Assembly: GCA_017455295.1 (NCBI GenBank)
Contig: JAFTBJ010000054.1
Coordinates: forward strand, 1 to 39,941
Source: Clostridia bacterium
GTDB taxonomy: Bacteria > Bacillota > Clostridia > Oscillospirales > Acutalibacteraceae
Length of the DNA stretch: 39,941 nt
Direction of reading: 5' to 3'
Within the stretch, counting starts at the first letter, position 1. The number at the start of each line of letters is the position of its first letter. Shown here piece after piece: positions 29,622 through 35,721 of the stretch. Both the position numbers and the translations under genes were made by a program. Under the pieces are notes generated by a model. The model searched no databases, was not told the DNA's origin, and worked only from the letters and a program-made list of their open reading frames with translations.

Positions 29622-30140
29622 TCAATCTTTCTTTTTCTTGTGCGCCAGTTTGACGAGCAGCCACTTTTGCAGCAGTGTGCCCACAAGCCAGATCAGCGGG
29701 AAGATCGTCCATTCGGTCATGCCGAGGAAGGCGAGCGGATTGCCGGTGGGCTCACCGTTCGAGACGAGCTTATACGCAAAATCCGACGCGAGCACAAACA
29801 CAAAAATCTCGAGGCCGGCGAGCAGCACGATCGCCGTGCCGGGATAAAATGCGTCGCGGCCGGGACGGAACAGCGAGATGAGATACGCGATCTGGGTGCC
29901 GATGTACCCGAGCGAGATCGGGATGAGGAAAATCAGCACGTCCACGTTTTTCTTGCAGGCGAAAATCACGCCCAGCACCGAGGCGTTCTTGACCCACGGA
30001 AGGAACATCAACACGATCAGCGCCACCGAAAAGAAGGCGGAGATATAGAAAAATGCATTTTGGCGTTTGAGATGTTCGCCGAGCGATATGCCGGTTCCAA
30101 AGGAATGGCGAGGCTTTTTGGCAACAGCCGTTTCGGACAT
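29622..30140 (-). CDS. Hypothetical membrane protein with four predicted helices
   Basis: This 172-residue protein is not one I recognise. After a soluble N-terminus of about 30 residues it has four hydrophobic segments (AFFYISAFFSVALIVLMFLPW, FLIPISLGYIGTQIAYLISL, AIVLLAGLEIFVFVLASDFA, IFPLIWLVGTLLQKWLLVKL) and ends in a lysine-rich cytoplasmic tail HKKKKD. The first loop after helix 1 (KNASVLGVIFACKKNVDVL) may face outside. AAAGGA lies ten bases before ATG 30140. It has its own promoter and terminator and lies alone between the VanY-like gene and a mobile repeat, so the context gives no function. Confidence 0.8.
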   Translation of the reverse strand: MSETAVAKKPRHSFGTGISLGEHLKRQNAFFYISAFFSVALIVLMFLPWVKNASVLGVIFACKKNVDVLIFLIPISLGYIGTQIAYLISLFRPGRDAFYPGTAIVLLAGLEIFVFVLASDFAYKLVSNGEPTGNPLAFLGMTEWTIFPLIWLVGTLLQKWLLVKLAHKKKKD

Positions 30141-32203: not shown

Positions 32204-32431
32204 ATGGTACTGGAAAAAGTCAAACAAATCCTGAGCATCCAGTTTGAAACGGACATCGACTCGATCGACGAAAACACCAACATCGAAGACGACCTCGGCG
32301 CTGATTCGCTGGACGTGGTGGATATGCTCATGTCGCTGGAGGATGAGTTCGACGTGGAGATCCCCGACGAGGAGATCGAAAATATCCGCACGGTGGGCGA
32401 AGTGGTCGCCTATATCGAGGAACACATGTAA
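32204..32431 (+). CDS. acpP: Acyl carrier protein
   Basis: This 75-residue acidic protein is an acyl carrier protein of fatty-acid synthesis. The phosphopantetheine attachment site is Ser35 in DDLGADSLDVVDMLMSLE, and the four-helix pattern and length are standard. GGAGG lies eight bases before the ATG. It stands alone with its own promoter and terminator; no fab or plsX gene is next to it, while the downstream gene is rlmB. A specialised carrier is possible but nothing suggests it. Confidence 0.95.
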   Translation: MVLEKVKQILSIQFETDIDSIDENTNIEDDLGADSLDVVDMLMSLEDEFDVEIPDEEIENIRTVGEVVAYIEEHM

Positions 32432-32447
32432 GGATGAAAAAAGAAGG

Positions 32448-32480
32448 GCCTCGGCTGCCATAACAGCAGCCGAGGCTTTT
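32448..32480 (+). terminator. Terminator of acpP
   Basis: An 11-bp perfect stem GCCTCGGCTGC/GCAGCCGAGGC with loop CATAACA is followed by TTTTGATTT. Confidence 0.85.
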
Positions 32481-32607: not shown

Positions 32608-33417
32608 ATGCGGGAGAGCGCAAAAAAAGACAAAATAACCGCCGGAGGACCGCCGTTTGAAGACGTGATCGTCGGGCGCAACGCGGTGCGGGAAGCGCTG
32701 CGAGCCGGGCGGCCGATCGACCGGATATTGATCGCGCGCGGCGAGCGGGGCGGCACGCTGCCGGTCATCGCGGCCGAAGCGCGCGACCGGGGCATCCCGA
32801 TCAAGGAGGCGGATCCCCGCAAGCTTTCCGCACTCGGCGGCGAGCATCACCAAGGCGTGATCGCCATCGCCGCCTGCAAAGACTATGTCACGCTCGACGA
32901 TCTGTTTGCCGCGGCAGAAGAAAAAGGCGAGCCGCCGTTTTTTGTGGTGTGCGATGAGCTGGAAGATCCGCACAACCTCGGCGCCGTCATCCGCACAGCG
33001 GAGGCGGCGGGCGCGCACGGCGTGATTGTGCCAAAGCGCCATGCGGCGGGGCTGACGTCGGCGGTGTATAAAGCGTCGGCGGGCGCGGTGGAATATCTGC
33101 CGGTCGCCAGAGTGACCAACATCGCCGAAACGCTCAGCGAACTCAAAGAACGCGGCGTGTGGGTATATGGCCTCGATATGGACGGCGAGACGTGGTGTCA
33201 GGCGGATCTGACCGGTGCCGCCGCGCTGGTGGTCGGGTCGGAAGGACGCGGACTCGGTCGGCTGGTGAAAGAACGATGCGACAAGATCCTGTCGCTGCCG
33301 ATGGCGGGACGGGTCAATTCACTCAACGCCTCGGTTGCGACGGCGCTGCTGCTTTATGAAACGGCGCGGCAGCGGCAGGGGATCGATGCGAGAAACGGCG
33401 GCAAAACGCGCGCATAA
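32608..33417 (+). CDS. rlmB: 23S rRNA (guanosine-2'-O-)-methyltransferase, TrmH/SpoU family
   Basis: This 269-residue protein is an RlmB-type SpoU methyltransferase. The N-terminal substrate-binding domain has VIVGRNAVREALRAGRPID, and the knotted domain shows motif 1 DELEDPHNLGAVIRTAEAAG, motif 2 ALVVGSEGRGLGRLV and motif 3 LPMAGRVNSLNASVATALL. It methylates a ribose in 23S rRNA (G2251 in E. coli). AAAGGAG lies nine bases before the ATG. Only 14 bases separate it from the P-type ATPase-like gene, so the two are probably co-transcribed. Confidence 0.94.
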   Translation: MRESAKKDKITAGGPPFEDVIVGRNAVREALRAGRPIDRILIARGERGGTLPVIAAEARDRGIPIKEADPRKLSALGGEHHQGVIAIAACKDYVTLDDLFAAAEEKGEPPFFVVCDELEDPHNLGAVIRTAEAAGAHGVIVPKRHAAGLTSAVYKASAGAVEYLPVARVTNIAETLSELKERGVWVYGLDMDGETWCQADLTGAAALVVGSEGRGLGRLVKERCDKILSLPMAGRVNSLNASVATALLLYETARQRQGIDARNGGKTRA

Positions 33418-33431
33418 AGAAAGGACGGGGC

Positions 33432-35669
33432 ATGATGGCGGATCAGTCTTATTCTGTGGACGACATTCTGCTGGAATATGAACTCCGAAAAAAAGAAGAA
33501 GCGGCTGCGGCTCCCCGCCCGAAGACGGCGACGGAGACCTTTGCTGCGCCGCAAATAGCAACGCAACCGGCAACGTCGCCGCCTGCCACACCGAAAAAGG
33601 CGGAACCGGAGCGGACAGTGGATCGTATTGCCCGCACCCGTACCCGAGTGCTGTCGGTGGATGGTCGGGGGACGCGGCAGCAAACGCGGGAGATCGTCGA
33701 TGAGGACGAGCAGATCGCGGGGCAGCTCACGTTTGACCAATTTGACGGTTCGGCGCGGGACGAAAGCGAGATCGAGGAGCGCGTGGCGCGTGTGCGCAGC
33801 GAAAAAGTGCGCGATTTTACGCTGATCCGCGGCGGCGGGTTTGGCATGCGATTGACCGGGGAAGAAGAAGGAGAAGACGAATCGGAGACGGAAGAGCCGG
33901 ACGACGAGATCGAGGAAGAAGAGACAGAATTCGACGACGAGATCGACGATTTTCGGGATTATGAAGAAGCGGAAGCGATCCGCTCGGAACTCACATACCG
34001 CCGCCACACCGGCGTGATCGGCGTGACGGCGACGGCGGTGGGCGCCTTTTTGCTGCTCGCGATGCTGACGGCGACCTATGTCGGACTGCCCGACGCGGTG
34101 GCGCCCGCGCTGCTGCTGTCGCTGCAGCTGGTGCTGTTGCTCGGCATGATGGGGATCAATCACCGCATGATGGGCGAAGGCTGGAAACGCTTTTTCACGA
34201 TGCACAGCGACGCGGATACGGTAGCGCCGGTATTGGCAAGCGCGGCGGCGCTGTATACCGTGTGGGCGATCTTCTGGTCGGAAGCGCTCGTTGTGAGCGG
34301 GTTGGCCGTTGGCGCGGCCGGCGGCGTCGGCCTTTTGGCGGGAGCGTTCGGTCGGCAGGTGCGGCTGGTGCGGATCTGCCGCAATTTCGCGTTTACGGCT
34401 TCGCGCACCGCGATCAAATACGCAGGCGGCTATGTGGAGGATGAGCGCACGGCGCGCGAAGTGGCGCGCGGTGTGGCGTCGGAGGACACGCCGGCGGTGG
34501 TCTATTTCCACCACACGCCGTTCCTGACGCGGTTTTTGGAAAATTCCTATCGCGCCGATCCGGCGGATCGGATGATGCAGTGGTTTGTGCCGGTGACGGC
34601 GGCGGTCGCACTGCTGTGTGCGATCGGCTATGCGCTGCTGTCGCCCGACAAGGCGATCCCCTATGCGCCGACCGTGTTTGCGGCGACGCTGGCGATGGCG
34701 CTGCCGGTGTGGACGCTGCCGGTCATGCAGCGCCCCATTTCCCGCGCGGCCAAGCGGTCGCTGCGCAGCGGCGCGATGCTGGTGGGCTGGCCGACGGCGG
34801 AAGAATTCGGCGATCATCCGCAGGCGCTTATCGTGGACGCGGCGGATCTGTTCCCGGCGGAGCAGGTCAAGCTGCACGGCATCAAGACCTTTTCGGGCAC
34901 GCGCATCGACGAAGCGATCACCGACGCGGCGGCGGTGGTGATCGAAGCGGGCGGGCCGCTGTCTCCCATTTTTCACCGCGTGATCGAAGAACGCACCGAT
35001 TTTCTCAAAGACGTGGAAAGCCTCGCCTATGAACAGGATATGGGCCTGTCCGGCTGGGTGGGCGGCAAGCGCGTGCTGGTCGGCAATCGGCGGCTGCTGC
35101 AGAACCACGGCGTCGAAGTGCCGGAAAAAAGCTATGAGGAACGCTATACGAAGGACGGCCGCTGTGCGGTGTATCTGAGCACCGGCGGCGAGCTGTCGGC
35201 GATGTTTGTGGTGAGCTATCTCGCCGAGCCGGGCATTGCGGCGCGGCTGCGGGCTCTTCAGAAAGAAAACGTGCAGCTGCTTATCCGCACCTGCGACCCC
35301 GACGTGACCGCCGCCCGCGTGTGTGAGGTGATGCGGCTGCCGGATGGAGCGGTGACGGTGCTGACGGCCGGCGAAGGCCGCACCTATGAAGGACTGCTGA
35401 CGGCCGAAAAGGAAACGCCGGAGGAGGCGCTGATCGCGTCGGGCGGACGCGCATCCGGCAAGATCAACGTGCTGCTGCAAAGCATCCGGCTGCGCCGCGG
35501 CGCCAAAGCCGCCGTGATCTCGCAGGTGATCGGTGGCAGCCTCGCGATGGCCTTCTCCGTTTTCGTGACCGTGACGGCAGGGGTGGTGCTGATGCCGCCG
35601 GTGCTGCTCGGCTGGGTGCTCCTTGTGGGGGCGATCGGCTTCCTGGTTCCCCGATTTTTCAAAGTGTAA
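33432..35669 (+). CDS. Degenerate P-type ATPase-like membrane protein (pseudo-ATPase)
   Basis: This 745-residue protein has a disordered, very acidic N-terminus (1-190) and then the layout of a heavy-metal P-type ATPase. Four helices occupy about 194-310 (GVIGVTATAVGAFLLLAM, APALLLSLQLVLLLGMMG, VLASAAALYTVWAIFW, VVSGLAVGAAGGVGLLAG). Two more cover about 380-430, ending ALPVWTLPV where P1B pumps have CPC. The P-domain start reads LIVDAADLFP in place of FDKTGTLT, keeping Asp469 but losing KTGT. A later GLSGWVGGKRVLVGNRRLL fits the N-domain, RTCDPDV replaces TGD, and GDGxNDxP is absent; no TGE is seen. Two C-terminal helices follow. It cannot be a normal pump. AAGGA precedes tandem ATGs. It is probably co-transcribed with rlmB. 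Confidence 0.78.
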   Translation: MMADQSYSVDDILLEYELRKKEEAAAAPRPKTATETFAAPQIATQPATSPPATPKKAEPERTVDRIARTRTRVLSVDGRGTRQQTREIVDEDEQIAGQLTFDQFDGSARDESEIEERVARVRSEKVRDFTLIRGGGFGMRLTGEEEGEDESETEEPDDEIEEEETEFDDEIDDFRDYEEAEAIRSELTYRRHTGVIGVTATAVGAFLLLAMLTATYVGLPDAVAPALLLSLQLVLLLGMMGINHRMMGEGWKRFFTMHSDADTVAPVLASAAALYTVWAIFWSEALVVSGLAVGAAGGVGLLAGAFGRQVRLVRICRNFAFTASRTAIKYAGGYVEDERTAREVARGVASEDTPAVVYFHHTPFLTRFLENSYRADPADRMMQWFVPVTAAVALLCAIGYALLSPDKAIPYAPTVFAATLAMALPVWTLPVMQRPISRAAKRSLRSGAMLVGWPTAEEFGDHPQALIVDAADLFPAEQVKLHGIKTFSGTRIDEAITDAAAVVIEAGGPLSPIFHRVIEERTDFLKDVESLAYEQDMGLSGWVGGKRVLVGNRRLLQNHGVEVPEKSYEERYTKDGRCAVYLSTGGELSAMFVVSYLAEPGIAARLRALQKENVQLLIRTCDPDVTAARVCEVMRLPDGAVTVLTAGEGRTYEGLLTAEKETPEEALIASGGRASGKINVLLQSIRLRRGAKAAVISQVIGGSLAMAFSVFVTVTAGVVLMPPVLLGWVLLVGAIGFLVPRFFKV

Positions 35670-35681
35670 TAATGAAAAGAA

Positions 35682-35721
35682 AAACTCCGTCGAGCATTCG
35701 GAAGAACGCTCGACGGAGTTT
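35682..35721. terminator. Bidirectional terminator
   Basis: A 14-bp perfect stem AAACTCCGTCGAGC/GCTCGACGGAGTTT (35682-35695 and 35708-35721) lies between convergent genes. Confidence 0.85.

Follow-up and report, generated by a model that had tools for sequence, protein, structure and literature searches.

A conserved P1B-type pseudo-ATPase family encoded beside rlmB, with a probable role as a membrane scaffold

Described P-type relatives and the two-gene locus

Pseudoenzymes are well known among kinases and proteases. CopA-type P1B-ATPases (LpCopA, PDB ID: 3rfu, and AfCopA) are built on an MA-M6 helix plan with P and N domains, and this plan, both domains and a colinear core are found in the family described here. 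However, the family lacks the DKTGT, TGE, GDGxND, CPC and HP motifs of CopA-type pumps, its A and P domains are shortened, an acidic N-terminal extension stands where those pumps have metal-binding domains, and its gene is fixed beside rlmB. The P domain has the fold of the haloacid dehalogenase (HAD) superfamily (PF00702), but no HAD chemistry is expected, since the nucleophile Asp is not conserved and the acidic motif loop has been deleted. The nearest precedent found is eukaryotic, human TMEM94/ERMA, which shares the P-type architecture, has also lost TGES and carries DKQGI and GSSANL in place of DKTGT and GDGVND (PMC13322241, PMC12134183). Its role as a pump is disputed, transport having been reported (PMC13322241) and contested in another cryo-EM study (PMC12134183), and this dispute cautions against calling the bacterial protein inert without assays. 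TMEM94/ERMA has ten membrane helices and a full A-like domain, is structurally nearest to SPCA among known pumps and retains its Asp, which is reportedly needed, whereas the family follows the P1B plan with eight helices in the model, has undergone domain deletions and keeps the Asp in only 20 of 36 order-wide alignment rows. As the Asp is not conserved across the order and much of two domains has been deleted, pumping is much less likely in the family. Searches of Pfam, NCBIfam and the open literature brought up neither a bacterial family of dead P-type pumps nor an rlmB-operon precedent, and no experimental work on the family was found in the literature; as far as these sources go, the suggestion of an undescribed pseudoenzyme family made in an earlier sequence-only reading holds. 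As a prokaryotic counterpart to the debated TMEM94/ERMA, the family raises the question of whether, and for what, a P-type fold can be of use once its catalytic motifs are gone.

The window, the whole stretch of 39,941 nucleotides that was analysed, contains the pseudo-ATPase gene at positions 33432..35669 of the forward strand, an open frame with an ATG start encoding 745 aa. The first of the two genes, rlmB (32608..33417, forward strand), encodes a 23S rRNA 2'-O-ribose methyltransferase of the SpoU family and was found intact by domain search (PF00588, E 6.9e-43; PF08032, E 2.6e-17). The rlmB stop lies at 33417 and the pseudo-ATPase start 14 nt downstream, confirming the earlier placement of an intact frame 14 bases behind rlmB. 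An acpP-like frame (approximately 32204-32431, recognised by eye with no family library run) lies directly upstream of rlmB and is followed by a strong terminator-like stem of 15 pairs at 32444-32480; a stem-loop search also located a strong terminator-like stem-loop of 18 pairs at 35682..35721, behind the pseudo-ATPase gene. With terminator-like stems at both positions, rlmB and the pseudo-ATPase gene look like a two-gene unit, and they are probably co-transcribed, expression being inferred. Elsewhere in the window, a 172-aa frame on the reverse strand (29622-30140) has hydrophobic stretches resembling membrane segments and matches nothing in Pfam at E 1e-5.

Retained P1B fold and altered catalytic motifs

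No significant Pfam match was returned for the window protein in a single-sequence search; NCBIfam CopA was matched at E 2.6e-15 and LpCopA in the PDB at E 2.7e-15. The curated cut-offs were missed by this protein (TIGR01525, 34 against 346 bits; PRK10671, 56 against 1316 bits). All 72 family members scanned were matched by NCBIfam PRK10671 CopA, and seven of the 72 matched PF00702 (best E 2e-5). A profile of 36 homologues reached LpCopA at E 8.8e-43, colinear over MA-M2, M3-P-N-P and, weakly, M5-M6. A single-sequence structure model was discarded (pLDDT 40), and the core, residues 170-745, was modelled with AlphaFold2 from a 72-row alignment (pLDDT 95.1, pTM 0.90), yielding eight membrane helices with the P and N domains between M4 and M5, which is the full P1B-ATPase layout. 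Copper P1B pumps were ranked first for this model by both Foldseek and VIA-align, the best solved structure being that of Legionella CopA (LpCopA, 3rfu; Z 24.4, 490 of 576 aligned, 19% identity; model 18-576 colinear with 3rfu 74-733), with ATP7B and HMA4 close behind. On the forward strand, helices MA, MB, M1 and M2 (residues 177-323, 33960..34400) correspond to model helices 8-47, 56-86, 92-111 and 114-154 and are colinear with LpCopA, helices M3-M4 are encoded at 34560..34766, and helices M5-M6 at 35451..35657 (model helices 505-546 and 553-573). Structure prediction had been set beforehand as a check that could have refuted the proposed heavy-metal P-type ATPase layout, and the P-type core was found in the predicted structure.

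Neither DKTGT nor GDGxND was found in any of 160 homologues checked (about 151 distinct), the whole genomes contributing 81 and the named genome contigs 79, and the window protein is without DKTGT, TGE, TGD, GDGxND and CPC. For reference, 20 real P1B pumps, sampled within this order and its class, were aligned with the family using MAFFT, and all 20 keep DKTGT, TGE, TGD, GDGxND and CPx in this alignment. The degenerate phosphorylation site DAADLFP (residues 469-475, 34836..34856, forward strand) stands in place of DKTGTLT, the family form being roughly [DSTN][AD]x[DE][LI]FP; the pairing of VDAADLFP with FDKTGTLT, originally made by eye, was reproduced by phmmer, by the profile search and by MAFFT. 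The phospho-Asp position, D469, is kept in 57 of the 72 rows of the closer set, against the 20 of 36 order-wide. The motif loss includes true deletions. The actuator (A) domain is a remnant (34401..34559, forward strand; mean length 69 against 134 aa in real pumps), shorter by approximately 65 aa, and TGE went with the deleted part. In the second half of the P domain (35223..35387, forward strand), TCDPD (residues 620-624) replaces TGDN and is followed by the deletion of 31 aa containing GDGxND; the Asp of TGD (D622) is nevertheless invariant (72/72 and 36/36 alignment rows), TGD having become TCD. The CPC of M4 is replaced by L-P-V without a Cys pair, its proline (P425) being kept in 69 of 72 and 31 of 36 rows. 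The N-domain HP motif is gone (SEHP to AGGP): the His position is Gly or Ser in 71 of 72 rows, the adjacent Glu is mostly Gly, and a conserved Glu further upstream is replaced by a hydrophobic residue (rows shown).

The contention that all catalytic motifs had been lost is thus borne out for DKTGT, TGE, TGD, GDGxND and CPC, and has to be qualified for the retained D622, P425 and, often, D469. Orthologues beside rlmB, the second check set beforehand, carry the same losses, with no exception in about 151 distinct sequences, and this common loss under purifying selection suggests a conserved pseudoenzyme family whose catalytic inactivity is inferred. By inference, the protein has lost both pumping and the ability to form a phospho-enzyme, and its lack of ATPase activity and of metal transport is likewise inferred. 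Some weak transport or binding of an unconventional kind remains possible, since the M4 proline and the TGD Asp are kept and D469 persists in most closer homologues.

Conservation has shifted from the P domain and M4 in real pumps to the N domain in the family. The N domain (residues 483-597, 34878..35222, forward strand; HP replaced by GG-P) is the most conserved part, with a mean column entropy of 2.15 bits against 2.34-2.74 bits elsewhere; the membrane helices, at 2.64-2.74 bits (M3-M4, 2.64), rank near the bottom for conservation, and the latter half of P has 2.55 bits. Real P1B pumps show the reverse: their N domain is the least conserved segment (1.76 bits), and P1 (0.87) and M3-M4 (1.05) belong to the best conserved.

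These values bear on the possibility of an unconventional transporter or channel, in which the membrane part would still move an ion, lipid or small molecule without the classical phosphorylation cycle, as has been argued for TMEM94/ERMA. In its favour, none of the eight membrane helices has been lost and M4 still has its proline, and transport has been reported for ERMA despite altered motifs (PMC13322241), a result disputed in a cryo-EM study (PMC12134183). However, ERMA reportedly needs the Asp that the family keeps in only 20 of 36 order-wide rows, the membrane helices are more variable than the N domain, no set of Cys, His or Met ligands is conserved and most of the A domain is deleted, and such transport is considered distinctly unlikely. 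A metal sensor was rejected, no conserved Cys/His/Met site having been found in place of CPC. A sensor of another kind, whose N domain would bind a nucleotide or other small molecule and so change how accessible the N-terminal tail or the membrane part is, accords with the N domain being the conserved centre of the protein and with the glycines G538 and G551, which align with the nucleotide pocket and are invariant in both alignments, N552 being common. However, the replacements at HP and at both Glu positions make ordinary ATP binding unlikely and no ligand is known; this explanation is judged unlikely.

Distribution, selection and linkage to rlmB

Full-length homologues (match E 1e-64 or better) were found in 137 of 148 genomes of the order, which we take from member names to be GTDB Oscillospirales (family Acutalibacteraceae), and in 105 of its 112 high-quality genomes. 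Two genomes scored as misses (G085 and G501) do show where a homologue-like frame begins, but a contig end cuts it off. Named members include Caproiciproducens, Faecalispora, Anaeromassilibacillus, Bittarella and Massiliimalia. The named-genome scan relied on a closer alignment of 11 rows, the 36-row profile being too diverse. Outside the order, no full-length match was found in samples of 391 class and 348 phylum genomes, with no more than three candidates scored in each genome. Among the matches listed, those outside the order were fragments (approximately positions 210-505, E 4e-38 or weaker), and the ten that were retrieved were real pumps with intact motifs. The family was separated from real pumps in a tree with 100/100 support, with the caveat of a long joining branch and a long-branch warning from the tree tool.

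The core is under strong purifying selection, with dN/dS mostly 0.05-0.12 (24 close pairs) and generally higher values in the N-terminal region. The loss of catalytic motifs and two broken single-genome copies might point to a decaying pump pseudogene, but frames are open in nearly all homologues, and the low dN/dS of the core and order-wide retention next to rlmB refute decay for the family, as the sequence-only reading had held; this explanation is regarded as practically untenable. The broken copies comprise L049 (G081:C38:4422-6233), whose frame is open but for a single in-frame TGA, either a broken gene or recoding, and G070:C45:25727-27441, split into two adjacent frames, probably by a frameshift or an assembly error. 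Near-universal occurrence across this large order of gut-dwelling and anaerobic bacteria, in single copy and under strong selection, implies that the role is probably a basic one. A role in sporulation or in the spore envelope of endospore formers was also considered, SpoIVA being present in 125 of the 148 genomes. It was rejected on co-occurrence across these genomes and is held to be very improbable: the pseudo-ATPase is kept in near-complete genomes without SpoIVA (G018, G025, G049, G057, G058 and G084) and missing from SpoIVA-bearing ones (G036, G043, G050, G489 and G508).

Of 157 testable loci, 147 have a same-strand rlmB immediately upstream, within 300 nt in 73 of 79 loci of one set and 74 of 78 of the other, with a median gap of 23 nt; several loci without a called upstream rlmB are start-codon miscalls or broken frames. 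The next commonest neighbour occurs in 11 of 81 loci, and every neighbour apart from rlmB stays within 14%. Four near-complete genomes (G036, G043, G050 and G508; 1.0-1.8 Mb), all belonging to one family, yielded no rlmB orthologue at E 1e-30 and lack the pseudo-ATPase as well; adjacency alone explains this joint absence, for which a single deletion could suffice. A functional tie to rRNA methylation or ribosomes is inferred, and the link may be only a shared promoter, that is, transcriptional. It is conceivable, and in our estimate rather improbable, that the protein is a housekeeping membrane hub tying ribosome maturation or translation status, via rlmB, to the envelope, with docking by the former ATP head and the N-terminal motifs. 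The gene pair with rlmB and the existence of cultured species make the role directly testable.

The N-terminal extension and the proposed role

The N-terminal extension (residues 1-176, 33432..33959, forward strand) is acidic and probably disordered, as judged from its composition and from the poor single-sequence model, in which its pLDDT is mostly low. Asp and Glu make up 61% of residues 140-180 (33849..33971, forward strand), just before the first membrane helix. An acidic tail of 190 residues had been described from the letters; an acidic region of approximately 170-190 aa does exist, at the N terminus and not at the C terminus. Across the family this region is 85 to 1053 aa long (median about 280) and 22% acidic on average, and in the longest examples only low-complexity acidic and Pro/Glu-rich sequence, with no fused domain, was seen by eye.

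Three short motifs, each with a shuffle expectation below 0.2, were identified on the forward strand within the extension, and they are carried by only a fraction of members (up to 61/151). YSVDDILLE (residues 7-15, 33450..33476) has the family form [FY]S[LVI][DE][DE]ILxE, nearly always near the N terminus, its nine-residue form occurring in 52 of 151 homologues (0.035 in shuffles) and its seven-residue form in 61. IAGQLTFDQF (residues 95-104, 33714..33743; family form [ILV].GQ[LIM].[FL]..F) occurs in 11 of 151 (0.02 in shuffles), and RSEKVRDFTL (residues 122-131, 33795..33824; family form R..[KR][VIA].[DNE]F.[LIV]) in 27 of 151 (0.04 in shuffles). The first of these is possibly a docking peptide, its partner being unknown.

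The assignment considered probable is that of a housekeeping P1B pseudo-ATPase acting as a membrane scaffold or adaptor, not a pump; both the scaffold role and the lack of ATPase activity are inferred, the former from an acidic disordered region with short peptides borne on a membrane-anchored, catalytically dead core. The protein would have arisen from a CopA-like P1B-ATPase, probably in a single event that preceded diversification of the order, and been retained as a single-copy housekeeping protein. The pump body would serve as a membrane anchor; the N domain, formerly the ATP-binding head, would be the conserved surface on which a ligand or partner docks; and the N terminus, long, acidic and disordered, may present short conserved peptides to cytosolic partners. 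The non-pumping sensor, scaffold or regulator envisaged in the sequence-only reading remains inference throughout: a scaffold or adaptor fits the anatomy best, and a metal sensor is not favoured, no metal ligand being conserved.

A strict DNA pattern of the N-terminal motif was searched in 60 genomes, and 11 of its 14 matches lie in the pseudo-ATPase gene. The three non-family matches are all internal, and a peptide common to the N termini of other proteins was rejected. With a relaxed pattern, for which 30 loci were read, non-family matches were chiefly conserved internal sites, TMEDILEE and TLDDILPE, in proteins that we take to be CorC-like and SecA-like, respectively. In six homologues, a W[ST][ML]E[ED]IDxLL copy follows the [FY]S[LVI][DE][DE]ILxE motif. 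The L037 version of the GQ[LIM]xLxxF peptide in the disordered region is GQLKLF, which is reminiscent of a sliding-clamp-binding motif.
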